From: a virus
Strand: one strand, 5' to 3'
Virus record (IMG/VR): IMGVR_UViG_3300003654_000069
Span: 64,001 to 121,971 of that record
DNA length: 57,971 nt
Below, in pieces: positions 14,587 to 26,918 of this stretch (position 1 is the stretch's first letter; each line of letters begins with the position of its first letter). The position numbers and the translations under genes are program-made. The notes below the pieces were generated by a model. It did not search any database. It was given only the letters and a program-made list of their open reading frames with translations, and was not told the DNA's origin.

Positions 14587-14622
14587 AATTTACCCTTCAT
14601 ATCTATGAACTAATCAACTAAT
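14587..14622 (+). promoter_or_regulatory. Array element copy 1 (protein type)
   Basis: Starts AATTTACCCTTCATATCTAT and continues into a diverged leader (GAACTAATCAACTAATC). It lies 46 nt before the ATG at 14633. See the array entry for the consensus. Confidence 0.7.
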
Positions 14623-14632
14623 CTATCTAACT

Positions 14633-14830
14633 ATGAAAAAGTATCCTATGTTCAAAGCAATGCTTCAATCTTGTGCATCTATTGATGATGTACTGAAAGT
14701 GTATGACTGCTTCATTAAGCCAGGTTATTCATTCAATGAAGAAGTCAGTGATCAAGGTCTTCTCGATCTTCTGGCTGTTATGTATGCTAAGATTGAAGAA
14801 CTAATAGTTGCAAAGACACTGCCATTCTGA
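14633..14830 (+). CDS. Array protein 1, unknown
   Basis: 65 aa, mainly helical, two Cys, with a hydrophobic C-terminal helix (LLDLLAVMYAKIEELIVAK). Headed by element copy 1 and closed by the terminator at 14845. No family recognised. Confidence 0.75.
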   Translation: MKKYPMFKAMLQSCASIDDVLKVYDCFIKPGYSFNEEVSDQGLLDLLAVMYAKIEELIVAKTLPF

Positions 14831-14844
14831 TGACTGATGTGTAT

Positions 14845-14869
14845 AACAAGGCTAGCAACCTTGTTTTGT
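14845..14869 (+). terminator. Intrinsic terminator after array protein 1
   Basis: AACAAGG/CCTTGTT stem with a 7-nt loop, followed by TTGTTTC. Confidence 0.75.
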
Positions 14870-14887
14870 TTCTTACCAATAACAGCC

Positions 14888-14919
14888 AATTTACCCTTTA
14901 TTACTATAAATCAATTAAA
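14888..14919 (+). promoter_or_regulatory. Array element copy 2 (protein type)
   Basis: Core AATTTACCCTTTATTACTA followed by TAAATCAATTAAA; 41 nt before the ATG at 14929. Confidence 0.8.
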
Positions 14920-14928
14920 TCTTATTTT

Positions 14929-15093
14929 ATGTTTAAACTACACAAATTTATTACTGCGTACAACGACCCAGCATTCGACAAGACCGAATTCTACTCCTTG
15001 TATATGTATTTGCTCTATGTCTGTGGCGGAGATTTCAGTATGTTCGATGACCAAACTCTGCTAAAATCAGCACTTATGGCTAATACACACTAA
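14929..15093 (+). CDS. Array protein 2, unknown
   Basis: 54 aa, chosen from the ATG at 14929 because it lies at the standard distance from element copy 2; a longer in-frame start at 14830 would run across that element and the previous terminator. Rich in Tyr, Phe and Leu (FYSLYMYLLYV). The TAA stop lies inside the terminator stem. Confidence 0.7.
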   Translation: MFKLHKFITAYNDPAFDKTEFYSLYMYLLYVCGGDFSMFDDQTLLKSALMANTH

Positions 15094-15112
15094 CCCTTCG
15101 TGGTTAGTTTTT
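15090..15112 (+). terminator. Intrinsic terminator after array protein 2
   Basis: CTAACC/GGTTAG stem followed by TTTTTAA. The gene's stop codon TAA is part of the left arm. Confidence 0.75.
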
Positions 15113-15144
15113 AATTTACCCTTTATTACTGTAAACCAATTAAA
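15113..15144 (+). promoter_or_regulatory. Array element copy 3 (protein type)
   Basis: Core and AAACCAATTAAA leader complete; 42 nt before the ATG at 15155. Confidence 0.85.
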
Positions 15145-15154
15145 ACTACAAACT

Positions 15155-15343
15155 ATGAAAAAGAACTCATTAAACTTCTTCCTTGTCCTAATTGCTGTGT
15201 CCTTCACGGCTACTCTTATTATCTCTCTATTTGAAGGTTATTTCGGAATTGAAATGATCTGTATTAGTGCCATTGTTATTGTGCCACTTGCTTTGCTTTG
15301 GGTTATCATTATGAACCACAAACAAAATAGGCACAACAGGTAG
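15155..15343 (+). CDS. Array protein 3, two-span membrane protein
   Basis: 62 aa with two hydrophobic segments (about residues 8-26 and 33-52) and a basic C-terminal tail (NHKQNRHNR), so both ends are probably cytoplasmic. Its small size and early position suit a host-envelope modifier such as a superinfection-exclusion protein, but this is only a guess. Confidence 0.75.
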   Translation: MKKNSLNFFLVLIAVSFTATLIISLFEGYFGIEMICISAIVIVPLALLWVIIMNHKQNRHNR

Positions 15344-15360
15344 TTGCTTGCTTGCTGAAT

Positions 15361-15384
15361 AAAGGGGCATTATGCCCTTTTTAA
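15361..15384 (+). terminator. Intrinsic terminator after array protein 3
   Basis: AAAGGGGCAT/ATGCCCTTT hairpin with one bulged G and a TTTTT tail. Confidence 0.75.
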
Positions 15385-15387
15385 AAG

Positions 15388-15406
15388 AATTTACCCTTTA
15401 TTATAG
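15388..15406 (+). promoter_or_regulatory. Array element copy 4 (RNA type)
   Basis: Core AATTTACCCTTTATTATAG. The AAACCAATTAAA leader is absent, and no ORF follows. Confidence 0.8.
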
Positions 15407-15489
15407 TAGTGTATACATAAGCAGGACCTCACGACGATGGGGATAGACCAATGGTCAAGTATGGAACGATCTTCCTGCTCCTGCTTTTA
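15407..15489 (+). ncRNA. Array non-coding RNA A
   Basis: Closing stem AGCAGGA (15420-15426) with TCCTGCT (15473-15479). The CCTGCT is repeated immediately (15480-15485) and followed by TTTTA, so the 3' arm can choose between two partners. Inside lies a GACC-AAT-GGTC hairpin. No ORF. Probably a stable small RNA or antisense regulator; target unknown. Confidence 0.6.
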
Positions 15490-15495
15490 TTGTAA

Positions 15496-15598
15496 AGAAT
15501 AACCTGTTTGTGAGTTCTTCAAACTCTCAATGCACCATCCTTGCATTACTATGCTTGAAAATGGACACACGGCGACGGGGTAAAACCCGTTGCTTTTT
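15496..15598 (+). ncRNA. Possible non-coding RNA A2, ending in a terminator
   Basis: About 100 nt with no own element copy. It shows small hairpins GAGTT-CTTC-AAACTC and TGCA-CCATCC-TTGCA, then a strong terminator GCGACGGG/CCCGTTGC with TTTTT (15572-15597). A ten-codon reading frame overlaps the terminator stem and is probably chance. Confidence 0.4.
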
Positions 15599-15603
15599 AA
15601 TAA

Positions 15604-15632
15604 AATTTACCCTTTATTACTTTAAACCAATG
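15604..15632 (+). promoter_or_regulatory. Array element copy 5 (RNA type)
   Basis: Core intact, followed by TAAACCAATGATTT: the leader is cut short after ACCAAT, and no ORF follows. Confidence 0.75.
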
Positions 15633-15836
15633 ATTTTGAATATAGCATAAGTGTTGATGAAACAATGCAGGTTATACGTTACCTACTAATGTACATATAG
15701 GTTAAAAATGCCTTAAAAACCACTACTCTCTCAGCATGCGACATAGACTTGTAACAGTCGAACCTTCGCAAAGAGAAACCTTGCCTTGTTACAAGGGCTA
15801 TGGATCTTCCTATAGGGAAGAGTGTGGTTTTTATAT
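15633..15836 (+). ncRNA. Array non-coding RNA B, long structured RNA
   Basis: The strongest fold spans 15715-15832: AAAAACCAC-ACTCT pairs with AGAGTGTGGTTTTT, which also acts as the terminator. A second stem, CTTGTAAC (15748-15755) with GTTACAAG (15788-15795), is nested inside. The first 80 nt contain a weaker CCTA/TAGG hairpin. An ORF on the opposite strand here is a by-product. Confidence 0.65.
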
Positions 15837-15838
15837 AA

Positions 15839-15870
15839 AATTTACCCTTTATTATCATAAACCAATTAAA
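15839..15870 (+). promoter_or_regulatory. Array element copy 6 (protein type)
   Basis: Core and leader complete; 42 nt before the ATG at 15881. Confidence 0.85.
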
Positions 15871-15880
15871 ACTATATATT

Positions 15881-16189
15881 ATGAACAAAATCACAAAACC
15901 TTTTAATCTTATGCTTCTTGGATGGTATCCATATGAAGAAGCACACGTGTGTAACGGTATTGAAATCCACGGTGACCAAGTATCTGAATTCATTCACTCT
16001 ATTGTCGACTCCACTTGGACAGTTGGTAACAAATCCACACTTGTGTTCGGTTCTTTGGATGAAGAGTATTCTGAAAACAAACTCTATGTGACCTATTGGG
16101 ATAATGTGCTCTATATCGGAACCGATATCTATTTCAATAGAAAAGACACCTCATTCAGACCAATGAAAGCAGAATATCTACCAAGATAG
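15881..16189 (+). CDS. Array protein 4, unknown
   Basis: 102 aa, beta-rich and aromatic (WYPYEEAH, LYVTYWDNVLYIGTDIYF), a compact soluble fold. Headed by element copy 6 and closed by the terminator at 16204. No family recognised. Confidence 0.8.
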   Translation: MNKITKPFNLMLLGWYPYEEAHVCNGIEIHGDQVSEFIHSIVDSTWTVGNKSTLVFGSLDEEYSENKLYVTYWDNVLYIGTDIYFNRKDTSFRPMKAEYLPR

Positions 16190-16203
16190 CATATGATAAG
16201 AAT

Positions 16204-16231
16204 AACAAGGGGGAATTCCCCTTGTTTTTTT
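16204..16231 (+). terminator. Intrinsic terminator after array protein 4
   Basis: AACAAGGGG/CCCCTTGTT stem with loop GAATT and a long T-tract; one of the strongest in the array. Confidence 0.85.
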
Positions 16232-16263
16232 AATTTACCCCTTATTACCATAAACCAATTAAA
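16232..16263 (+). promoter_or_regulatory. Array element copy 7 (protein type)
   Basis: Core (C variant: TTTACCCCTTATTA) and leader complete; 43 nt before the ATG at 16275. Confidence 0.85.
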
Positions 16264-16274
16264 ACCTATTTATT

Positions 16275-16487
16275 ATGAAAACAGATGGAATGCCGACTTA
16301 TCGGGATGAGCCAGTAGAATTGTATTCTACCTACAAAGAGAGAAAAACCTCTGATGTCAAATTGCGTAACCTGTCATTAATTACACGGGTTAATGAATTA
16401 TCTTTAAAGCAAGAAGACAAGGTAATGTTGCTTATGGAGATGAAACAGCAATTAGAATTAGCTCTGTTGTATCATTCGTTACACTAA
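16275..16487 (+). CDS. Array protein 5, unknown
   Basis: 70 aa with an extended polar N-terminus (RDEPVELYSTYKERK) and a C-terminal amphipathic helical half (LSLKQEDKVMLLMEMKQQLE) that could dimerise. Closed by the terminator at 16493. Confidence 0.75.
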   Translation: MKTDGMPTYRDEPVELYSTYKERKTSDVKLRNLSLITRVNELSLKQEDKVMLLMEMKQQLELALLYHSLH

Positions 16488-16492
16488 TCTAT

Positions 16493-16516
16493 AACAGGGT
16501 AAAACCTGTTTTTTTA
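16493..16516 (+). terminator. Intrinsic terminator after array protein 5
   Basis: AACAGG/CCTGTT with loop GTAAAA, then TTTTT. The AGGGTAAA here is complementary to TTTACCCT in the next element. Confidence 0.75.
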
Positions 16517-16548
16517 ATTTACCCTTAACTACTGTAAACCAATTAAAC
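16517..16548 (+). promoter_or_regulatory. Array element copy 8 (protein type)
   Basis: Core slightly diverged (TTTACCCTTAACTA), leader complete; 41 nt before the ATG at 16558. Confidence 0.8.
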
Positions 16549-16557
16549 CCATTCTAT

Positions 16558-16803
16558 ATGTCAACAGAACTAAATTCAAGTCCAAGTAGATTATACATAA
16601 TACCTGTATATTCTTCCGACTTTAAAAGCAAAAGTTTCAGAAGGTTTGCACTACCTGTAAACTTTGAGAACACCTGTGCAAAAGCAACGTGGTATTTCTA
16701 TCAAATGGATATGTTCTCTTGTGGAGAAGAAGCATACCCATTAGAAATGCATGTCGTTGTATCTGAAATGCAACCGGGATTTGTAATGAATCAACAAGGG
16801 TAA
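16558..16803 (+). CDS. Array protein 6, unknown
   Basis: 81 aa, mixed alpha/beta, with two Cys. It ends ...NQQG, and the codons CAA GGG TAA of that end form the left arm and loop of the terminator. No family recognised. Confidence 0.75.
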   Translation: MSTELNSSPSRLYIIPVYSSDFKSKSFRRFALPVNFENTCAKATWYFYQMDMFSCGEEAYPLEMHVVVSEMQPGFVMNQQG

Positions 16804-16814
16804 AAACCTTGTTG
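16792..16814 (+). terminator. Hairpin overlapping the stop codon of array protein 6
   Basis: CAACAAGG/CCTTGTTG stem, with the TAA stop in the loop. The T-tract is weak (ATAAAAATTT), so termination may be partial. Confidence 0.6.
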
Positions 16815-16819
16815 ATAAA

Positions 16820-16841
16820 AATTTACCCTTTATTACCGTAA
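16820..16841 (+). promoter_or_regulatory. Array element copy 9 (RNA type)
   Basis: Core AATTTACCCTTTATTACCG, then TAAGCAGTG: no leader and no ORF. Confidence 0.8.
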
Positions 16842-16920
16842 GCAGTGAACGACTTCTTTGATAGCACCATGGCCTCAACAACCAATATGGTACGACTATC
16901 AGAGAAGTTGCAACTGTTTT
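16842..16920 (+). ncRNA. Array non-coding RNA C, long single hairpin
   Basis: One long interrupted stem: CAGT/ACTG, ACTTCT/AGAAGT, TGATAG/CTATCA and ACCAT/ATGGT, capped by a 16-nt loop rich in C and A (GGCCTCAACAACCAAT) and followed by TTTTT. The exposed loop would suit base pairing with a target RNA. No ORF. Confidence 0.75.
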
Positions 16921-16926
16921 TAAAAG

Positions 16927-16959
16927 AATTTACCCTTTATATCTATACAACCAATTAAA
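16927..16959 (+). promoter_or_regulatory. Array element copy 10 (protein type)
   Basis: Core with TATATCTATA variant, leader ACCAATTAAA complete; 44 nt before the ATG at 16971. Confidence 0.8.
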
Positions 16960-16970
16960 CCATATATACT

Positions 16971-17168
16971 ATGAACAAAGATGAACTTATTGCTCTCAAA
17001 GCCGAACTCGAACAAGAGTTACGTGATCTTCCGTACATTTCAACAGTTGACAATGACGGGGAAACTGATGATGATGCCTATCAAGAGAAACTTGAACAAG
17101 ATTGGCATAAAGATGAGATTAGAGATAAACTCGTCTCAATCGGTAGACGAATAGCAAAACAAGGGTAA
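16971..17168 (+). CDS. Array protein 7, coiled-coil; related to the protein at 25974
   Basis: 65 aa, acidic and helical. It shares DDDAYQ plus spaced Leu/Glu pattern and length with the 73-aa protein at 25974-26195, so the two look like paralogues. Both halves flank the DDDAYQ turn as helices (ALKAELEQEL and KDEIRDKLVSIGRR). It ends ...KQG with the stop in the terminator loop. Confidence 0.8.
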   Translation: MNKDELIALKAELEQELRDLPYISTVDNDGETDDDAYQEKLEQDWHKDEIRDKLVSIGRRIAKQG

Positions 17169-17184
17169 AAACCTTGTTTTCTTT
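17158..17184 (+). terminator. Terminator overlapping the stop codon of array protein 7
   Basis: AACAAGG/CCTTGTT stem with the TAA stop in the loop, then TTTTCTTTAA. Confidence 0.75.
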
Positions 17185-17216
17185 AATTTACCCTTTATAT
17201 CTATAAACCAATTAAA
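17185..17216 (+). promoter_or_regulatory. Array element copy 11 (protein type)
   Basis: Core with TATATC variant, leader complete; 43 nt before the ATG at 17228. Confidence 0.85.
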
Positions 17217-17227
17217 CTCATACACTT

Positions 17228-17401
17228 ATGAAACTAAACCGTCAATTCAAAAAGAAATTCAGCAATGCGGGTATTAAGTTAACTGCATTAGACGCACTGA
17301 AACAAGTTAAGATTACAGAACCACAACTAAAAATCATTCTCGGTAATGATGATGAGCGGTTCGATGCATTCGTAACTCGTTGGCTTATCCGTAATAGATA
17401 G
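17228..17401 (+). CDS. Array protein 8, small basic protein
   Basis: 57 aa, with a basic N-terminus (KLNRQFKKKFS) and a helical C-terminus (RFDAFVTRWLIRNR). The canonical element spacing supports the call despite the small size. Might bind nucleic acid; no family recognised. Terminator at 17404. Confidence 0.7.
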   Translation: MKLNRQFKKKFSNAGIKLTALDALKQVKITEPQLKIILGNDDERFDAFVTRWLIRNR

Positions 17402-17403
17402 GT

Positions 17404-17431
17404 AACAAAGGGGTAACACCCTTTGTTTTTT
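17404..17431 (+). terminator. Intrinsic terminator after array protein 8
   Basis: AACAAAGGG/CCCTTTGTT with T-tract; strong. Confidence 0.85.
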
Positions 17432-17463
17432 AATTTACCCCTGATTACCATAAACCAATTAAA
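17432..17463 (+). promoter_or_regulatory. Array element copy 12 (protein type)
   Basis: Core TTTACCCCTGATTA, leader complete; 44 nt before the ATG at 17476. Confidence 0.8.
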
Positions 17464-17475
17464 TCATATATATAT

Positions 17476-17646
17476 ATGCAAGAACCACGACTGTATGGTG
17501 ATGAACACGATGGTATGTCCCTACCTGAACAAGTGTATCTATCTGCCTGTGAAGGAAACTCACGGTTGAGAGAAAGCAACTTTCAGTTAAACGGGGATAT
17601 GGCTCAACAGTTCATTGAAAGCCAAGAGCAAGAAGAGGACTATTAG
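17476..17646 (+). CDS. Array protein 9, small acidic protein
   Basis: 56 aa, acidic and rich in Gln and Glu, with tail ESQEQEEDY. Such small acidic early proteins can be DNA mimics, but nothing here proves it. Element copy 12 and the terminator at 17657 frame it. Confidence 0.7.
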   Translation: MQEPRLYGDEHDGMSLPEQVYLSACEGNSRLRESNFQLNGDMAQQFIESQEQEEDY

Positions 17647-17656
17647 TCCTGTTCGA

Positions 17657-17684
17657 AACAAGCATAATGGCTTGTTTTTTAAAG
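17657..17684 (+). terminator. Intrinsic terminator after array protein 9
   Basis: ACAAGC/GCTTGT stem with loop ATAATG and TTTTTT. Confidence 0.75.
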
Positions 17685-17716
17685 AATTTACCCTTTATTA
17701 CTTTAAACCAATTAAA
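17685..17716 (+). promoter_or_regulatory. Array element copy 13 (protein type)
   Basis: Core and leader complete; 42 nt before the ATG at 17727. Confidence 0.85.
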
Positions 17717-17726
17717 CCCCTTTTAT

Positions 17727-18026
17727 ATGATAAACACAAGAGCAAGAGATATTTATATAATATCTGCGATTAAAGAAACTTGGAAACAACTGTTTAAAAC
17801 TGATTTTGATTTAAACACTCTCCAATCTTTGGATATAGAAGAATTAGAAGACCCGAATGATTTTCCTAAATCTTCTGTCCACGATAGAGTAGACGGTAGT
17901 GCTATACTTCTAGAACATACCAAGTATACTAATAAAGAAGTAATTGGTGTATTGTTTGCACATTACCACAGGCAAACAAGAAAAGATAATTATGGTTGCA
18001 CTGTCTATATCTTAAAACAAGGGTAA
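17727..18026 (+). CDS. Array protein 10, unknown
   Basis: 99 aa from the ATG at 17727, at standard spacing. An upstream in-frame start at 17667 would translate through the terminator and element and is rejected. Acidic middle (LDIEELEDPNDF), His-rich segment near residue 80 (LFAHYHRQTRKDN). Ends ...KQG with the stop in the terminator loop. Confidence 0.75.
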   Translation: MINTRARDIYIISAIKETWKQLFKTDFDLNTLQSLDIEELEDPNDFPKSSVHDRVDGSAILLEHTKYTNKEVIGVLFAHYHRQTRKDNYGCTVYILKQG

Positions 18027-18040
18027 TACCTTGTTTTTTA
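18016..18040 (+). terminator. Terminator overlapping the stop codon of array protein 10
   Basis: AACAAGG/CCTTGTT with the TAA stop in the loop, then TTTTA. Confidence 0.8.
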
Positions 18041-18044
18041 ATTA

Positions 18045-18076
18045 AATTTACCCCTCATTATCATAAACCAATTAAA
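18045..18076 (+). promoter_or_regulatory. Array element copy 14 (protein type)
   Basis: Core TTTACCCCTCATTA, leader complete; 46 nt before the ATG at 18091. Confidence 0.8.
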
Positions 18077-18090
18077 ACCCAATATATATT

Positions 18091-18393
18091 ATGGAAACAA
18101 TCCAATTAGAAAACGGCAAAACAGCAATCAGTTTTATCGCTGATGACAACTCACCATTGGCAATTGTGCACCTCTCTGTTATACAGAGATTAACACGGTT
18201 ACTGCGAAAGAAAAACTTCTCTGAAATTCAGGGGGATATCATTGATCGTATTACTCTCTCACTGAATTTGAAAGACCTTATTGAAATAATGCACGATGAA
18301 GTAGCATTCCACCAATCGGTTAATCTGATACAGGAATACAGTGTACCAAAAGAAGAGTCTACTCCTATTGATCATGCTGATATATGTCAATAA
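18091..18393 (+). CDS. Array protein 11, unknown
   Basis: 100 aa. A beta-like N-terminus (TIQLENGKTAISFIADDNS) is followed by helices (VIQRLTRLLRKKNF, DRITLSLNLKDLIEIMHDE). Soluble, slightly acidic. Terminator at 18396. No family recognised. Confidence 0.78.
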   Translation: METIQLENGKTAISFIADDNSPLAIVHLSVIQRLTRLLRKKNFSEIQGDIIDRITLSLNLKDLIEIMHDEVAFHQSVNLIQEYSVPKEESTPIDHADICQ

Positions 18394-18395
18394 TG

Positions 18396-18420
18396 AAAGG
18401 GGAGTAATCCCCTTTTTAAT
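18396..18420 (+). terminator. Intrinsic terminator after array protein 11
   Basis: AAAGGGG/CCCCTTT with loop AGTAAT and a T-tail. Confidence 0.8.
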
Positions 18421-18422
18421 TA

Positions 18423-18445
18423 AATTTACCCCTTATTAGAATAAG
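18423..18445 (+). promoter_or_regulatory. Array element copy 15 (RNA type)
   Basis: Core AATTTACCCCTTATTAGAA, then TAAGGCTGA: leader absent, no ORF. Confidence 0.8.
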
Positions 18446-18554
18446 GCTGATAATTACGGGTGGGGTACTTAAAGGCCAGTCTCTCAAGAAGAGCAATACC
18501 CCCACAAGAATTGTTTCTAGCATATCGGAGTACCACTAGAAAGGTACTTTTTTA
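18446..18554 (+). ncRNA. Array non-coding RNA D
   Basis: Stem GTGGGGTA (18460-18467) with TACCCCCAC (18497-18505), containing a small CTC/GAG hairpin, then a separate terminator GTACC/GGTAC (18530-18547) and T7. No ORF. Confidence 0.7.
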
Positions 18555-18558
18555 AAAG

Positions 18559-18590
18559 AATTTACCCTTCATTAACATAAACCAATTAAA
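18559..18590 (+). promoter_or_regulatory. Array element copy 16 (protein type)
   Basis: Core TTTACCCTTCATTA, leader complete; 44 nt before the ATG at 18603. Confidence 0.85.
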
Positions 18591-18602
18591 ACCATATACA
18601 TT

Positions 18603-18926
18603 ATGAAACAATTAAGAGTAACAACAAGTACACCTTGCAGTATGTTTGGGTTCAGCCAAATGGAACCATTAGTTAAGCCCGATAATATCGGCGAGTTAAT
18701 CGTGAGTACACCTGATAATCATATCAAAGGAAAGACAGCGTACATTGATGATAATGCCGAAGATATTGCGGGATTTGATATCCCAATATTCATTGACGGT
18801 AATATGCACCAACTTGATGAACCTAAAGATAATCAGGATATCCTAATGGTATTACCTTCGGGTGAGTATCCACTACTTGCTGAACTAGTAGATGATACAT
18901 ATTACCTCACACTGAAATCAGTGTAG
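18603..18926 (+). CDS. Array protein 12, unknown beta-rich protein
   Basis: 107 aa, acidic (DDNAEDIAGFD), beta-prone, with Met/Pro-rich turns (SMFGFSQMEPLVKPD). It reads like a small beta-barrel of about 100 residues. Terminator at 18934. No family recognised. Confidence 0.78.
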   Translation: MKQLRVTTSTPCSMFGFSQMEPLVKPDNIGELIVSTPDNHIKGKTAYIDDNAEDIAGFDIPIFIDGNMHQLDEPKDNQDILMVLPSGEYPLLAELVDDTYYLTLKSV

Positions 18927-18933
18927 AATAAAG

Positions 18934-18958
18934 CTAACCCAATCAGGGTTAGTTTTTA
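18934..18958 (+). terminator. Intrinsic terminator after array protein 12
   Basis: CTAACCC/GGGTTAG with TTTTT. Confidence 0.8.
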
Positions 18959-18962
18959 ATAA

Positions 18963-18984
18963 AATTTACCCTTTATCAATATAA
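18963..18984 (+). promoter_or_regulatory. Array element copy 17 (RNA type)
   Basis: Core AATTTACCCTTTATCAATA, then TAAAGAGAG: no leader, no ORF. Confidence 0.75.
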
Positions 18985-19109
18985 AGAGAGAGAGTATATT
19001 GCTATGTGGTATCAGCAAGCTACTGATATGGAGAGTGTTTCCTATTAATTACAGGAATCACCATGCAACACCGTCTGCAAGGGAACTGGGAGCAGTACTC
19101 CTCTTTTTT
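18985..19109 (+). ncRNA. Array non-coding RNA E
   Basis: Three local hairpins: TATCAG/CTGATA (19010-19028), TTCCT/AGGAA (about 19038-19057) and a terminal GGAG/CTCC (19089-19101) followed by TCTTTTTT. No ORF. Confidence 0.6.
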
Positions 19110-19115
19110 AATACA

Positions 19116-19147
19116 AATTTACCCTTCATTAGTATAAACCAATTAAA
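19116..19147 (+). promoter_or_regulatory. Array element copy 18 (protein type)
   Basis: Core and leader complete; 41 nt before the ATG at 19157. Confidence 0.85.
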
Positions 19148-19156
19148 CCCTTTTAT

Positions 19157-19384
19157 ATGAAAAAAATGAAATATGTAAGATTAGGCGATGGTTATAACGA
19201 CATTGTTATATTCCCTACAAGCACAACACATGATACATTTGCTAATATTAGACATAAACCTATATCAGCGGGATTTTGCTATATATCAAGTGATAAAATT
19301 GAGTGCTTTGGATATTCAGAATCATTACAATTAGACTCACATGAAGATGATTCTATGTATGCTACTAAGCAATATTTTGATTAA
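19157..19384 (+). CDS. Array protein 13, unknown
   Basis: 75 aa, beta-rich N-terminal half (YVRLGDGYNDIVIFPTSTT) and acidic C-terminal half. Terminator at 19396. No family recognised. Confidence 0.75.
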   Translation: MKKMKYVRLGDGYNDIVIFPTSTTHDTFANIRHKPISAGFCYISSDKIECFGYSESLQLDSHEDDSMYATKQYFD

Positions 19385-19395
19385 CCTTCAACTAT

Positions 19396-19420
19396 AACAA
19401 GGGTAATACCTTGTTTTTTA
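19396..19420 (+). terminator. Intrinsic terminator after array protein 13
   Basis: AACAAGG/CCTTGTT with loop GTAATA and TTTTTA. Confidence 0.8.
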
Positions 19421-19423
19421 TTA

Positions 19424-19456
19424 AATTTACCCCTTATTATCATAAACAATACTAAA
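19424..19456 (+). promoter_or_regulatory. Array element copy 19 (protein type, variant leader)
   Basis: Core complete; leader reads TAAACAATACTAAA instead of TAAACCAATTAAA. 44 nt before the ATG at 19468. Confidence 0.8.
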
Positions 19457-19467
19457 CTACATATTAT

Positions 19468-19650
19468 ATGGAACAACCTTTCAAACCCACAAACTTTAAA
19501 GAACTGTGTGATGATTTCATTAAAACAATGTCTTATGATGATATGGACATTGATGATGTGCCTACAAAGGTATTCATACGTGATTTTGCTAAATGGCTTG
19601 ATGCATACTATGAATTGCCAATAGCCAAACCTGATAAAATTGAAGACTAA
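19468..19650 (+). CDS. Array protein 14, small acidic protein
   Basis: 60 aa, strongly acidic (SYDDMDIDDVP) and helical. The stop codon region overlaps the left arm of the terminator at 19646. No family recognised. Confidence 0.72.
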   Translation: MEQPFKPTNFKELCDDFIKTMSYDDMDIDDVPTKVFIRDFAKWLDAYYELPIAKPDKIED

Positions 19651-19670
19651 CCCTTTGGTTAGTTTTCTTT
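19646..19670 (+). terminator. Terminator overlapping the stop codon of array protein 14
   Basis: ACTAACC/GGTTAGT; the TAA stop lies in the left arm. T-tail TTTCTTT. Confidence 0.75.
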
Positions 19671-19671
19671 A

Positions 19672-19703
19672 AATTTACCCCTTATTAATATAAACCAATT
19701 AAA
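19672..19703 (+). promoter_or_regulatory. Array element copy 20 (protein type)
   Basis: Core and leader complete; 42 nt before the ATG at 19714. Confidence 0.85.
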
Positions 19704-19713
19704 CCAACTCACT

Positions 19714-19899
19714 ATGGAACCACACGAACACCCTATTGTAATGTTAGCAGAGATTATTGTAAAACAACTTGAACTTGCAAAAAAGAGCAGAGATGTAAAC
19801 AATTTTGCAAATTCTATGGAAAATAGTCATAATGAAATTATAATTTATCTTCAGGATAAATCTGCTGAAATAGCACATAAGCTCAATGTTACATTGTAA
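19714..19899 (+). CDS. Array protein 15, small helical protein
   Basis: 61 aa, almost all helix with regularly spaced Leu/Ile (MLAEIIVKQLELAKK ... IIIYLQDKSAEIAHKL), likely a helical hairpin or dimer. Terminator at 19905. Confidence 0.72.
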   Translation: MEPHEHPIVMLAEIIVKQLELAKKSRDVNNFANSMENSHNEIIIYLQDKSAEIAHKLNVTL

Positions 19900-19904
19900 C
19901 ATAG

Positions 19905-19930
19905 AACAGGGTAATACCTGTTTTTTAAAG
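19905..19930 (+). terminator. Intrinsic terminator after array protein 15
   Basis: AACAGG/CCTGTT with loop GTAATA and TTTTTT. Confidence 0.8.
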
Positions 19931-19931
19931 A

Positions 19932-19965
19932 AATTTACCCCTTATTACTTTAAACAATACTAAAT
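19932..19965 (+). promoter_or_regulatory. Array element copy 21 (protein type, variant leader)
   Basis: Core complete; leader TAAACAATACTAAA as in copy 19. 42 nt before the ATG at 19974. Confidence 0.8.
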
Positions 19966-19973
19966 CTATATAT

Positions 19974-20189
19974 ATGGAAACAATTATCAGAGAGTACATT
20001 TTCTCACCAAGCAGACGGTTGAAACTGTTGAACAAGAAGAGAGAGTTCTATGTGTCACCTTATCAGTTCTATAAGGTAGTCGGACACTTTGACCTTCCTT
20101 CGTTCTATGCCCGTGAAAGAGATATCTATCACAAGGGTCAGCAACTGATGAAGACATACATTGCAAAGACAAGAAACAGGGGGAAATAA
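19974..20189 (+). CDS. Array protein 16, small basic protein
   Basis: 71 aa, rich in Arg, Lys and Tyr (SRRLKLLNKKREFYVSPYQF, KTYIAKTRNRGK), so probably nucleic-acid or ribosome binding. The GGGGGAAATAACCCC stop region is the terminator. Confidence 0.73.
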   Translation: METIIREYIFSPSRRLKLLNKKREFYVSPYQFYKVVGHFDLPSFYARERDIYHKGQQLMKTYIAKTRNRGK

Positions 20190-20206
20190 CCCCTTGTTTT
20201 TTAAAT
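20174..20206 (+). terminator. Terminator overlapping the stop codon of array protein 16
   Basis: GGGG/CCCC hairpin with the TAA stop in the loop, flanked by AACA/TTGTT and followed by TTTTTT. Confidence 0.75.
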
Positions 20207-20207
20207 C

Positions 20208-20231
20208 AATTTACCCCTTATGATAATAGGT
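20208..20231 (+). promoter_or_regulatory. Array element copy 22 (RNA type)
   Basis: Core AATTTACCCCTTATGATAATA with no leader and no ORF. Confidence 0.75.
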
Positions 20232-20303
20232 TAAAGTTGGACCTGTACCCACGGGATAGGTGAAATGCTGAAGGAGAGTTAAACCACCTCTCCTCCAACT
20301 TTT
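20232..20303 (+). ncRNA. Array non-coding RNA F, three-way junction
   Basis: Closing stem AGTTGGA (20235-20241) with TCCAACT (20294-20300). Inside are a weak arm around CCC-AC-GGG and a strong arm GGAGAG (20273-20278)/CTCTCC (20288-20293) that stacks directly on the closing stem. TTT follows. The outline is tRNA-sized but lacks a T-loop and anticodon arm. Confidence 0.75.
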
Positions 20304-20308
20304 AAAGA

Positions 20309-20340
20309 AATTTACCCCTTATTATCATAAATCAATTAAT
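20309..20340 (+). promoter_or_regulatory. Array element copy 23 (protein type)
   Basis: Core complete, leader TAAATCAATTAATC; 53 nt before the ATG at 20362. Confidence 0.8.
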
Positions 20341-20361
20341 CAACTTAATACCTTACACACT

Positions 20362-20679
20362 ATGTCAAAACTAACACCTCTTCAAAAATCAGTTGCTGAA
20401 AAACTGAATGCTCTTATCGTTGAACAGAACCAATGGATAGAGATTACCAACAAGGAAGTTCAGAAAGGGCTTATCGGTTGTTGCACTAACGGTTGGAACC
20501 TCCGTCAGAACATTCAGGCTCTGAACACGGGGAAACTAACACTTACTGCTCTACGTGACTCCTTCACAGAAAACATAGGTATGCCCTATGAAGTATATGT
20601 AGAAGATAATAAGAAAGCAGATAAGCCGACTATTGAAAGCCGACTTGCTACTATCATTAAAGACCTTATCAGAATGTAA
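20362..20679 (+). CDS. Array protein 17, unknown helical protein
   Basis: 105 aa, helical, with paired Cys (GLIGCCTNGWNLRQNIQAL). The central helix-turn-helix-like stretch is suggestive of nucleic-acid binding but not diagnostic. Terminator at 20684. Confidence 0.78.
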   Translation: MSKLTPLQKSVAEKLNALIVEQNQWIEITNKEVQKGLIGCCTNGWNLRQNIQALNTGKLTLTALRDSFTENIGMPYEVYVEDNKKADKPTIESRLATIIKDLIRM

Positions 20680-20683
20680 GGTG

Positions 20684-20706
20684 AAAGGGGACCTTTCCCC
20701 TTTTTA
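20684..20706 (+). terminator. Intrinsic terminator after array protein 17
   Basis: AAAGGGG/CCCCTTT with loop ACCTTT and a T-tail. Confidence 0.8.
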
Positions 20707-20718
20707 ACTACCGCTTTA

Positions 20719-20740
20719 AATTTACCCTTGACTACTGTAA
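20719..20740 (+). promoter_or_regulatory. Array element copy 24 (RNA type)
   Basis: Core slightly diverged (AATTTACCCTTGACTACTG), no leader, no ORF. Confidence 0.7.
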
Positions 20741-20808
20741 CTTAATGAAAGCGGGCTTCTCTATTCGGTGTGATACCGTGTAGGGAAGCAACCTTTCATT
20801 CTTTTCTA
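20741..20808 (+). ncRNA. Array non-coding RNA G, long hairpin
   Basis: AATGAAAG (20744-20751)/CTTTCATT (20793-20800), then GCTTCTCTA (20755-20763)/TAGGGAAGC (20781-20789), capped by CGGT/ACCG. It ends in TCTTTTC. No ORF. Confidence 0.75.
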
Positions 20809-20821
20809 TTTACAAAAAAGG

Positions 20822-20850
20822 AATTTACCCTTTATTACTCTAAATCAATA
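20822..20850 (+). promoter_or_regulatory. Array element copy 25 (protein type)
   Basis: Core complete, leader TAAATCAATATA; 55 nt before the ATG at 20877. Confidence 0.75.
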
Positions 20851-20876
20851 TATATTCACTTAATACCTATTCAACT

Positions 20877-21251
20877 ATGTTAGCACATTTTAAGAGTTCC
20901 TACCGTAAAATCGGTAAAGATGAAAGACCCTTAACCGTATTCGTTTATAAGGTTAAAGGCACCGAAACGGAAATTGCCTCGTTTATCAAAGCCCAAGGCG
21001 AACATTACAAGCCCGAAGCCGACGGTTCTATCACTTGGTTCACACCCCGATTTAACGGGAAAGTTGTGAAATTGTTGATTAGTGCCAAATCGGGTAAAGT
21101 CGTTGCCGATAACACGGAAAGTGACCAAGTCCGTTCTATGTTAGAGCAAAACGACAATGCTCTCGGCCGTGCCATTGCGGAACTCTATGCCAAGCAAATG
21201 CTCGGTAAGTTCAAAGGCCCTGATGAAGCAAGTGACCTCGTACCTGCGTAA
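20877..21251 (+). CDS. Array protein 18, paralogue of the protein at 21546
   Basis: 124 aa. It shares with the next gene FKSSYRK near the N-terminus, TVFVY about 15 residues later, a central DGS, then KTGK/KSGK with DN(T/S)E and a C-terminal helix. Codon use is clearly more G+C-rich and more uniform than its neighbours, as in a highly expressed protein or a recent arrival. A DNA-binding accessory role is possible; I do not recognise a family. Confidence 0.82.
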   Translation: MLAHFKSSYRKIGKDERPLTVFVYKVKGTETEIASFIKAQGEHYKPEADGSITWFTPRFNGKVVKLLISAKSGKVVADNTESDQVRSMLEQNDNALGRAIAELYAKQMLGKFKGPDEASDLVPA

Positions 21252-21257
21252 GGAAGA

Positions 21258-21292
21258 AAGAATAGGGGCCCTCAGCCCTATTCTTTTTTTTC
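21258..21292 (+). terminator. Strong intrinsic terminator after array protein 18
   Basis: AAGAATAGGG/CCCTATTCTT stem with an 8-nt loop and eight or more T. Confidence 0.9.
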
Positions 21293-21309
21293 TTGTGAAC
21301 CGCTTGTAA

Positions 21310-21430
21310 TTTACTAAACTACATATCTACGGGTGGCTGTTGTAGCTCCTTGAGACACACTCTTCTAAATAGTACCAGCTAGAGCCACGAGTGCTACCGG
21401 TGCTTGACATACTCCTTATACACCGCTTTT
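21310..21430 (+). ncRNA. Non-coding RNA H, degenerate element upstream
   Basis: Preceded by a decayed element (AATTTACTAAAC at about 21307). Stems GTGGCT/AGCCAC (21333-21388) and CGGTG/CACCG (21399-21425), the latter followed by CTTTTAATTT, a plausible terminator. No ORF. Confidence 0.5.
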
Positions 21431-21450
21431 AATTTACCCTTTATTGGGCT
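21431..21450 (+). promoter_or_regulatory. Array element copy 26
   Basis: Core AATTTACCCTTTATTGGG; leader absent. It is the last copy, 115 nt before the ATG at 21546, with a G-rich non-coding stretch between. Confidence 0.65.
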
Positions 21451-21545
21451 AGGTGGATTAGGGGGACTACGTTGTCGGTGTGACTCGTCGGCTAATAGTA
21501 TCTCTATCAACTATCAAATCAATATCAACTTAAAACCAATTTAAA
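21451..21545 (+). ncRNA. Leader or non-coding RNA I
   Basis: GGCTAGGTGGATTAGGGGG... can fold by pairing TTAG with CTAA around a GTCGG/CGTCGGC region. No terminator separates it from the ATG at 21546, so it may be a long structured leader of that gene rather than a separate RNA. Confidence 0.4.
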
Positions 21546-21965
21546 ATGAAAATCTCATTTAAATCGAGCTATCGTAAGATGGCAAAAAATGGTAAGCCCG
21601 TGACTGTATTCGTGTACAACATTAAGGCTACCGACAAAGAACTCGCTTCTGCTAAAGCAGCAGAGCAGCAGAACATAGTTGTTCAGCCTGACGGCTCAGC
21701 ATTACTGTTCTCTGTAAACTATGCGGGTGAACACGCAACTCTTATTCAGTCACCAAAGACGGGTAAGTTTAATGTTGACAATAGCGAGCTTGACAAAATT
21801 CGCAACATTGTTGACAGTAACCCCGGTGCCTTAGGTAACGCAGTTGCTGCTATATTTGCTCAAACTTTGATGACTGCACCCCGTGCTTCGTCTTCAACAA
21901 GTTCAGCAGGTGCAACAGTAGGTGCTGGTACTACAGGTGACGGTGGTTCTATTGACGGCAAATAG
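21546..21965 (+). CDS. Paralogue of array protein 18 with low-complexity tail
   Basis: 139 aa. The first 115 residues align with the gene before it (SFKSSYRK, TVFVYNIKATD, KTGKFNVDNSE, IFAQ). The last 25 residues are a Ser/Thr/Gly/Ala tail (ASSSTSSAGATVGAG) absent from the paralogue. The leader TTAAAACCAATTTAAA is intact. Ends before a strong nested hairpin at 21986. Confidence 0.82.
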   Translation: MKISFKSSYRKMAKNGKPVTVFVYNIKATDKELASAKAAEQQNIVVQPDGSALLFSVNYAGEHATLIQSPKTGKFNVDNSELDKIRNIVDSNPGALGNAVAAIFAQTLMTAPRASSSTSSAGATVGAGTTGDGGSIDGK

Positions 21966-26318: not shown

Positions 26319-26918
26319 ATGAAACTATATATATTATGGTTGGTCTGTATTGCTTGCAATACACCAATCGAAAAAGAAAGGGTTATTGATACACACTTTA
26401 GTGGGAGGTTATCCCAGGCAGTCAGTAACCAAGTTAAGGATAAGGTTGTATATAACGGATCCTATTATAAAATAGGATACCCAAATGGTGATGTTCCTAA
26501 AGGAATAGGTGTATGTACTGATGTTGTAATCAGGGCATATAGAGCTGTGGGTGTTGATCTTCAGAAGGAAGTGCATGAAGATATGGTTAAGGCTAAATCC
26601 GAGTATGATAAACGAAGACATACAGATAAACTGGATCCAAGTATAGACCATAGAAGGTGTCCTAATTTGATTACTTACTTTACCCGTCAGGGTGCAAAGT
26701 TGAGTATAACAAATAAGGATACTGATTATAAGCCAGGAGATATAGTCTTTTGGGATTATGGTGGAGGTCATGTAGGAATGGTTAGTAATGTAAAGGTACC
26801 GGGTACTAAGCGATTTTATATGGTTCACAACCACGGTTGGGGAAATCAGATGCAAGATTTTCTATTTAAACATAAAATTGTTGCTCATTTTAGATGGGTA
26901 CCAAGTGATACTAAATAA
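26319..26918 (+). CDS. Secreted or lipid-anchored DUF1287-like hydrolase
   Basis: 199 aa. The N-terminus (MKLYILWLVCIACN) looks like a signal or lipoprotein peptide. The mature part has the DUF1287 pattern, an NlpC/P60-like fold: GVCTDVVIRAYRAVG (catalytic-type Cys), GDIVFWDYGGGHVGMVS (His) and MVHNHGWGNQMQ (Asn/His). It probably acts on peptidoglycan or another periplasmic amide. It is far from the late lysis genes, so it may be an early envelope-modifying factor. Confidence 0.82.
   Translation: MKLYILWLVCIACNTPIEKERVIDTHFSGRLSQAVSNQVKDKVVYNGSYYKIGYPNGDVPKGIGVCTDVVIRAYRAVGVDLQKEVHEDMVKAKSEYDKRRHTDKLDPSIDHRRCPNLITYFTRQGAKLSITNKDTDYKPGDIVFWDYGGGHVGMVSNVKVPGTKRFYMVHNHGWGNQMQDFLFKHKIVAHFRWVPSDTK

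Follow-up and report, generated by a model that had tools for sequence, protein, structure and literature searches.

An array of 26 small cassettes headed by one repeated element in a distant crAss-like phage: candidate early promoters for a virion RNA polymerase

Background

Why would a phage genome place the same short sequence, always in the same orientation, at the head of each of 26 tiny genes and RNAs? Here we address this question in virus record IMGVR_UViG_3300003654_000069, of which we analyzed a window of 57,971 nucleotides (nt; bases 64001-121971 of the 121,971-base record) containing an array of cassettes that each begin with the element AATTTACCC. Positions below are those of the window unless otherwise indicated. 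We propose that the array is the early region of the phage, that its elements are promoters read by the virion RNA polymerase (vRNAP), one for each terminated cassette, and that cassettes are exchanged by homologous recombination at the elements; we assign this explanation a probability of roughly 0.77.

Results

A motif scan of the window located 26 exact copies of AATTTACCC at 14587-21431 (6.8 kb), every one of them on the + strand, where about 0.2 copies would be expected (Markov-2 model; Poisson -log10 p ~49). The one-orientation array of 26 described in an initial annotation of this DNA is thus real. Element positions 1-9, 11, 13 and 20 are invariant in 26/26 copies, and position 21 is A in 25/26. 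The longer core put forward in that annotation, AATTTACCCyTTATTAnnnTA, held exactly in 14 copies (against 0 in shuffles); the others depart from it by a few bases, confined to the second half of the element. The start of the array coincides with a strand switch, from late genes on the - strand to genes on the + strand.

Two element-like sequences fall outside this count. A solitary weaker copy, AATTTACCCCATACTGCCATAAG, lies antisense within an open reading frame (ORF) outside the array (32007-31985, - strand) and is either a chance occurrence or an antisense start. The sequence TAATTTACTAAACTACATATCTA at 21300-21330, between cassettes 25 and 26, resembles a 27th element that has decayed.

The units behind the elements have a consistent layout. 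Eighteen of the 26 copies precede a small ORF. Counted from the start of the element, the ATG comes after 41-55 nt, and in 16 of the 18 cases after 41-46 nt, in agreement with the spacing first reported. A 115-nt leader connects the copy at 21431 with the ORF at 21546, and the ORF-less RNA cassettes therefore number seven rather than eight. Cassettes measure 101-410 nt, with the exception of cassette 25 (609 nt), so that the initial estimate of about 60-350 bp was slightly off. Terminator-like sites are strongly enriched in the array region (35 versus 4.2±2.3 in shuffles) and a T-run lies within 28 nt upstream of 25/26 element copies; because of this enrichment and these T-runs, we describe the unit as terminator, element, about 40 nt, ORF or RNA, and terminator, as suits the independent expression cassettes suggested earlier. 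Compared with shuffled sequences, the ORF-less cassettes at 16820 and 20719 fold far better (z ~-6.4 and ~-5.3), the one at 15388 folds well (z -3.5) and the others fold modestly better. In most of the ORF-less cassettes the predicted fold sets in about 20-25 nt beyond the first base of the element, on the invariant T or immediately behind it, as would be expected if the last conserved bases of the element were the start site; transcription probably begins at this 3' TA.

Judging from its proteins, the record is a distant crAss-like phage. Its TerL matches Crassvirales records at 22-25% identity, the best ones covering 77-93% of its length, and matches phrog_6681 in PHROGs (E 1.2e-52). Giant ORFs are located in the left half of the record. 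A 4038-aa protein (L006 7250-19366, - strand) contains IDFDGDK, an instance of the DxDGD catalytic motif, and matches phi14:2 gp077 in a tblastn search (E 3.6e-11). A profile built from the core of this protein and three relatives (A2) matches PDB 6VR4_A, a DNA-dependent RNA polymerase (E 6.5e-20) that we take to be the phi14:2 RNA polymerase. The profile was needed for this match, as a single-sequence PDB search with the 4038-aa protein matched only its other fused domains. By these comparisons the protein is homologous to the phi14:2 vRNAP. In Crassvirales, early genes are transcribed by the vRNAP, and late genes are thought to be transcribed by the host RNA polymerase (PMC10136315, PMC8375218). 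The 4038-aa protein also has a His-phosphatase-like stretch (residues 1143-1209) and a cpYpsA/SLOG domain (residues 3655-3813).

Arrays of the same architecture are present in relatives, identified by DNA polymerase, major capsid protein and TerL (~50-66% identity). In four genomes (G009, G019, G028 and G029) the exonuclease-helicase interval holds a similarly built array with another element, and F01, a small shared cassette protein (IIFIWYLITG), pointed to more. We measured 18 arrays, including that of the window. All mapped arrays lie in the exonuclease-helicase interval, and each has its own start element, with about nine types across the ~18 arrays: AATTTACCC, GTACTGTG/TAACTGTG, TACAGCT, CCACTTTTAA, TACTGTTCT, TACCTCTT, ATC(C/A)CCTTG, AATCTTTARTAA and CARCTTTTATT. 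A downstream half, TACTA-n-T-n-(A/T)TAA or TTTATT, is common to many types, whereas the upstream block differs. Twenty-eight families of cassette proteins are found in more than one array, often beneath differing element types, and F01 itself is present in 17 arrays. A search of relatives for the same core, as the initial annotation suggested, thus recovered the architecture with other elements and no AATTTACCC array (AATTTACCC was absent in all 25 relatives tested); taken literally, this is the outcome that the annotation named as a refutation, but it does not count against the cassette interpretation, because the same architecture occurs there with an element that tracks their own vRNAP.

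Detection depended on the method, with genome-wide k-mer enrichment missing some arrays that were recovered by enrichment upstream of ATGs or through the F01 gene. Comparison of the array DNA with 50,697 phage records gave no match, the exact long element pattern was not found in viral contigs, and searches for a related locus with the neighboring 660-aa and 139-aa proteins returned none. A scan of genome contigs gave a single match, in an unrelated contig, which we judged to be chance, and hidden TACTA-type arrays in G065, G049, G051 and G050 were not supported. Elsewhere, G029 carries an 82-nt 'empty' cassette (68990-68909, L106), also found in G028, in which a frame only a few codons long stands between the element and a terminator. 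In the early interval of G014, G034 and G037 a leader-like string, AACTGAGTGCAGAG, is repeated where others carry the array, and is possibly another RNA or control element.

What, then, determines the element type? The TerL tree and the vRNAP-core tree conflict, and by sequence comparison it is the vRNAP, and not the genome clade, that the element type tracks. G035 and G058 are TerL sisters (96% identity) with vRNAP cores at 33% identity and unrelated elements (TAACTGTG versus AATCTTTARTAA), while G053, which groups by TerL with G049 and G065, shares its element with G029 and has a vRNAP 86% identical to that of G029. Across the nine array genomes compared, element similarity follows vRNAP identity when TerL is controlled for (partial Mantel r 0.90, permutation p 0.0002), and its partial correlation with TerL given vRNAP is -0.14. 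G019 (L121-L126) and G037 (L109-L114) have proteins that are mostly 80-95% identical and early arrays that differ; they also differ in an exchanged block of ~42 kb (55-97 kb of G019) comprising the vRNAP as well as cargo and tail genes. In the genome, the array lies at a distance from the vRNAP (21-23 versus 61-73 kb in G019), and simple linkage therefore fails to explain their match.

These data also bear on the strongest alternative, that the elements are promoters for the host RNA polymerase acting with an alternative or phage-encoded sigma factor or activator. Bacteroidetes hosts possess alternative sigma factors (PMC9723704), and the vRNAP moves in its exchanged block together with other cargo proteins. 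We nevertheless consider this explanation unlikely, as element types sort by vRNAP clade and not by genome clade. Moreover, the Bacteroidetes sigma-A box (consensus TTTG / TAnnTTTG; PMC6847099, PMC9723704) was found, as TAnnTTTG, at 0/26 copies within -60..+45, and sigma-70-like sites showed no enrichment in the array region relative to shuffles. Elsewhere in this phage the box does occur, with an upstream TTG, in several intergenic regions of the late or middle class (for example at record positions 29852-, 62172-, 70222- and 106063+). Finally, in phi14:2 the vRNAP produces early transcripts and early transcription is resistant to rifampicin (PMC10136315).

The placement of the elements speaks to two further alternatives. 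Repressor or silencer sites between units, of the stoperator type, would likewise be one-directional, repeated and intergenic, but each copy has a terminator before it and the next unit after it, which means that transcription must start there, and no promoter signal other than the element was found. Together with the element-ATG distance of 41-46 nt in 16 cases, and with no repressor or integrase recognized (neither was searched for systematically), this makes such a role improbable. Slightly less probable again is a 5' untranslated region or translation signal, comparable to the start-associated sequences (SAS) of cluster K mycobacteriophages. The near-constant distance to the ATG in 18 cassettes and the importance of A-rich leaders in Bacteroidetes (PMC6847099) are in its favor; on the other hand, the element also heads the seven ORF-less cassettes, it adjoins terminators some 40 nt ahead of the ATG, and its leader-like appearance is limited to the AAACCAATTAAA part.

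Comparison of close relatives revealed replacement and reordering of whole cassettes. The arrays of G028 and G029 are near-identical except at two sites, where unrelated cassettes stand between near-identical flanks and the breakpoints fall in the element and in the terminator. In the replaced units of L173/L172 the first 30-42 nt, that is the element, are common and the bodies unrelated. The order of two adjacent cassettes is swapped in L166/L167, L199/L201 and G009/L169, with matches that start on base 1 or 2 of the unit. These patterns support the view that cassettes are exchanged at the repeats with no need of a dedicated recombinase, as had been anticipated for the array. Homologous recombination would be a sufficient mechanism, because all units start with the same 30-45 bp and end in a terminator. 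No integrase turned up among the proteins scanned, the genome not having been searched systematically for one. Integron-like, site-specific recombination sites are the least probable reading, since although replacement and reordering break at the elements, the element is not palindromic, is wholly different between relatives with the same gene families in their arrays, and its 30-45 bp of identity could suffice for ordinary homologous recombination.

Discussion

Our observations are consistent with a model in which each AATTTACCCyTTATTAnnnTA element would act as a compact promoter, spanning approximately -20 to +1, for a virion-packaged RNA polymerase. Each promoter would give rise to one monocistronic transcript, encoding a small protein or constituting a structured RNA and closed by its own intrinsic terminator. 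Units may be replaced or reordered between co-infecting relatives via homologous recombination at the repeats, and a lineage that gains a different vRNAP block would come to carry array elements of a different type.

Several points weigh against this model. The array of the window has 0 cassette protein families in common with the other arrays, so that exchange is documented in relatives and not in its own genome. The Mantel comparison covers nine genomes that include near-copies and reflects two or three discordant events, and it was devised after inspection of the data. As the vRNAP travels within an exchanged block of ~42 kb, another cargo protein could be the reader of the elements. In phi14:2, crAss001 and about ten relatives no dense array was detected by the methods used, and several of the RNA cassettes are only modestly better folded than shuffles.

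A broader proposal is that these phages have 'transcription dialects', in which a swap of the vRNAP block is accompanied by a change of every promoter in the unlinked early array, the dialect sets which cassettes can be expressed and exchanged, and the self-terminated structured RNAs act early. We regard the odds of this proposal as even.

The modular shuffling resembles that of T4-type promoter-early stem-loops (PeSLs), motifs that combine a promoter with a terminator and through which genes are shuffled (Arbiol 2010; Comeau 2014, as cited in PMC4503421). As far as these motifs are described in that source, both arrangements have a terminator stem-loop beside an early promoter (a role that is putative here), between small variable genes that are shuffled among close relatives. 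Within the same bounds, the array differs in its phage group and host phylum, in an element that is not sigma-70-like and that changes sequence with the vRNAP, in its nearly exclusive use of single-gene units and in its ORF-less RNA cassettes. Because it belongs to another phage group and has no sigma-70 promoter, the array is not a T4 PeSL by membership. In light of this partial precedent, the statement in the initial annotation that no described system matches does not hold; the independent cassettes that it proposed are supported, and their exchange is supported in relatives. What is new is the crAss-like setting, the presence of RNA cassettes and the way in which element type switches together with the vRNAP.

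Other known systems share single features with the array. In switches of promoter specificity of the T7/T3/SP6 type, a specificity block diverges among phages and the downstream half stays similar. Array elements likewise combine a divergent block with a similar downstream half; the polymerase differs, being a predicted two-barrel vRNAP within a giant protein and not a single-subunit T7-type enzyme. The promoters of N4 are a few hairpins. In N4, P23-45 (gp96, PMC10770324) and phi14:2 (gp66, PMC10136315), early or pre-early genes have promoters that a packaged polymerase reads or is believed to read, and some pre-early genes of P23-45 carry an AT-rich motif (PMC10770324). Here, by comparison with N4 and P23-45, 7-26 elements head separately terminated units, in about nine motif types. 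The SAS of cluster K mycobacteriophages are tied to translation starts, and the associated extended SAS (ESAS) are inverted repeats whose role is unknown (PMC3203893). They too are short motifs, repeated ahead of many small phage genes with one orientation prevailing (PMC3203893), whereas the array motif lies between terminator and unit and in 7/26 copies heads an ORF-less RNA.

If the model is correct, the arrays offer testable candidate promoter sequences for crAss-like vRNAPs, paired with their cognate enzymes in several lineages and possibly amounting to a set of orthogonal polymerase-promoter pairs. They would also represent a natural experiment in the joint change of a polymerase and up to 26 promoters. 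The region itself is a dense accessory locus of small orphan proteins and RNAs, perhaps putative host-takeover or anti-defence factors, and such regions can be found in other genomes from architecture alone.

Cassette contents

Coordinates of the 26 units are given in Table 1. Searches of the cassette proteins against Pfam and PHROGs gave only sub-threshold matches or families of unknown function, an Rfam search gave no credible match, and a tRNA scan found none.

Table 1. Units of the array, with window positions; z values compare predicted folds with shuffled sequences.
Feature	Position	Strand	Content
Whole array	14587..21965	+	26 units: promoter-like element, small ORF or structured RNA, intrinsic terminator
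Cassette 1	14587..14887	+	element + ORF 14633-14830 (65 aa)
Cassette 2	14888..15112	+	element + ORF 14929-15093 (54 aa)
Cassette 3	15113..15387	+	element + ORF 15155-15343 (62 aa, hydrophobic; weak sub-threshold Phage_holin_2 match)
Cassette 4	15388..15603	+	element + ORF-less RNA (z -3.5)
Cassette 5	15604..15838	+	element + ORF-less RNA (z -1.4; long closing stem, T run at end)
Cassette 6	15839..16231	+	element + ORF 15881-16189 (102 aa)
Cassette 7	16232..16515	+	element + ORF 16275-16487 (70 aa)
Cassette 8	16516..16819	+	element + ORF 16558-16803 (81 aa)
Cassette 9	16820..16926	+	element + ORF-less hairpin RNA (z -6.3 to -6.5)
Cassette 10	16927..17184	+	element + ORF 16971-17168 (65 aa)
Cassette 11	17185..17431	+	element + ORF 17228-17401 (57 aa)
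Cassette 12	17432..17684	+	element + ORF 17476-17646 (56 aa)
Cassette 13	17685..18044	+	element + ORF 17727-18026 (99 aa)
Cassette 14	18045..18422	+	element + ORF 18091-18393 (100 aa)
Cassette 15	18423..18558	+	element + ORF-less RNA (z -1.4 to -1.6)
Cassette 16	18559..18962	+	element + ORF 18603-18926 (107 aa)
Cassette 17	18963..19115	+	element + ORF-less RNA (z -2.3 to -2.5)
Cassette 18	19116..19423	+	element + ORF 19157-19384 (75 aa; phrog_3988, unknown function)
Cassette 19	19424..19671	+	element + ORF 19468-19650 (60 aa)
Cassette 20	19672..19931	+	element + ORF 19714-19899 (61 aa)
Cassette 21	19932..20207	+	element + ORF 19974-20189 (71 aa)
Cassette 22	20208..20308	+	element + ORF-less branched RNA (z -2.4 to -2.8)
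Cassette 23	20309..20718	+	element + ORF 20362-20679 (105 aa)
Cassette 24	20719..20821	+	element + ORF-less hairpin RNA (z -5.1 to -5.6)
Cassette 25	20822..21430	+	element + ORF 20877-21251 (124 aa)
Cassette 26	21431..21965	+	element + 115-nt leader + ORF 21546-21965 (139 aa)

The proteins of cassettes 25 and 26 are paralogues (39% identical) without a Pfam or PHROG match. The final cassettes of other arrays likewise encode larger proteins (families F02/F15). Immediately downstream of the early region, at 26319-26918 (+ strand), lies a gene for a DUF1287/CHAP-type protein.

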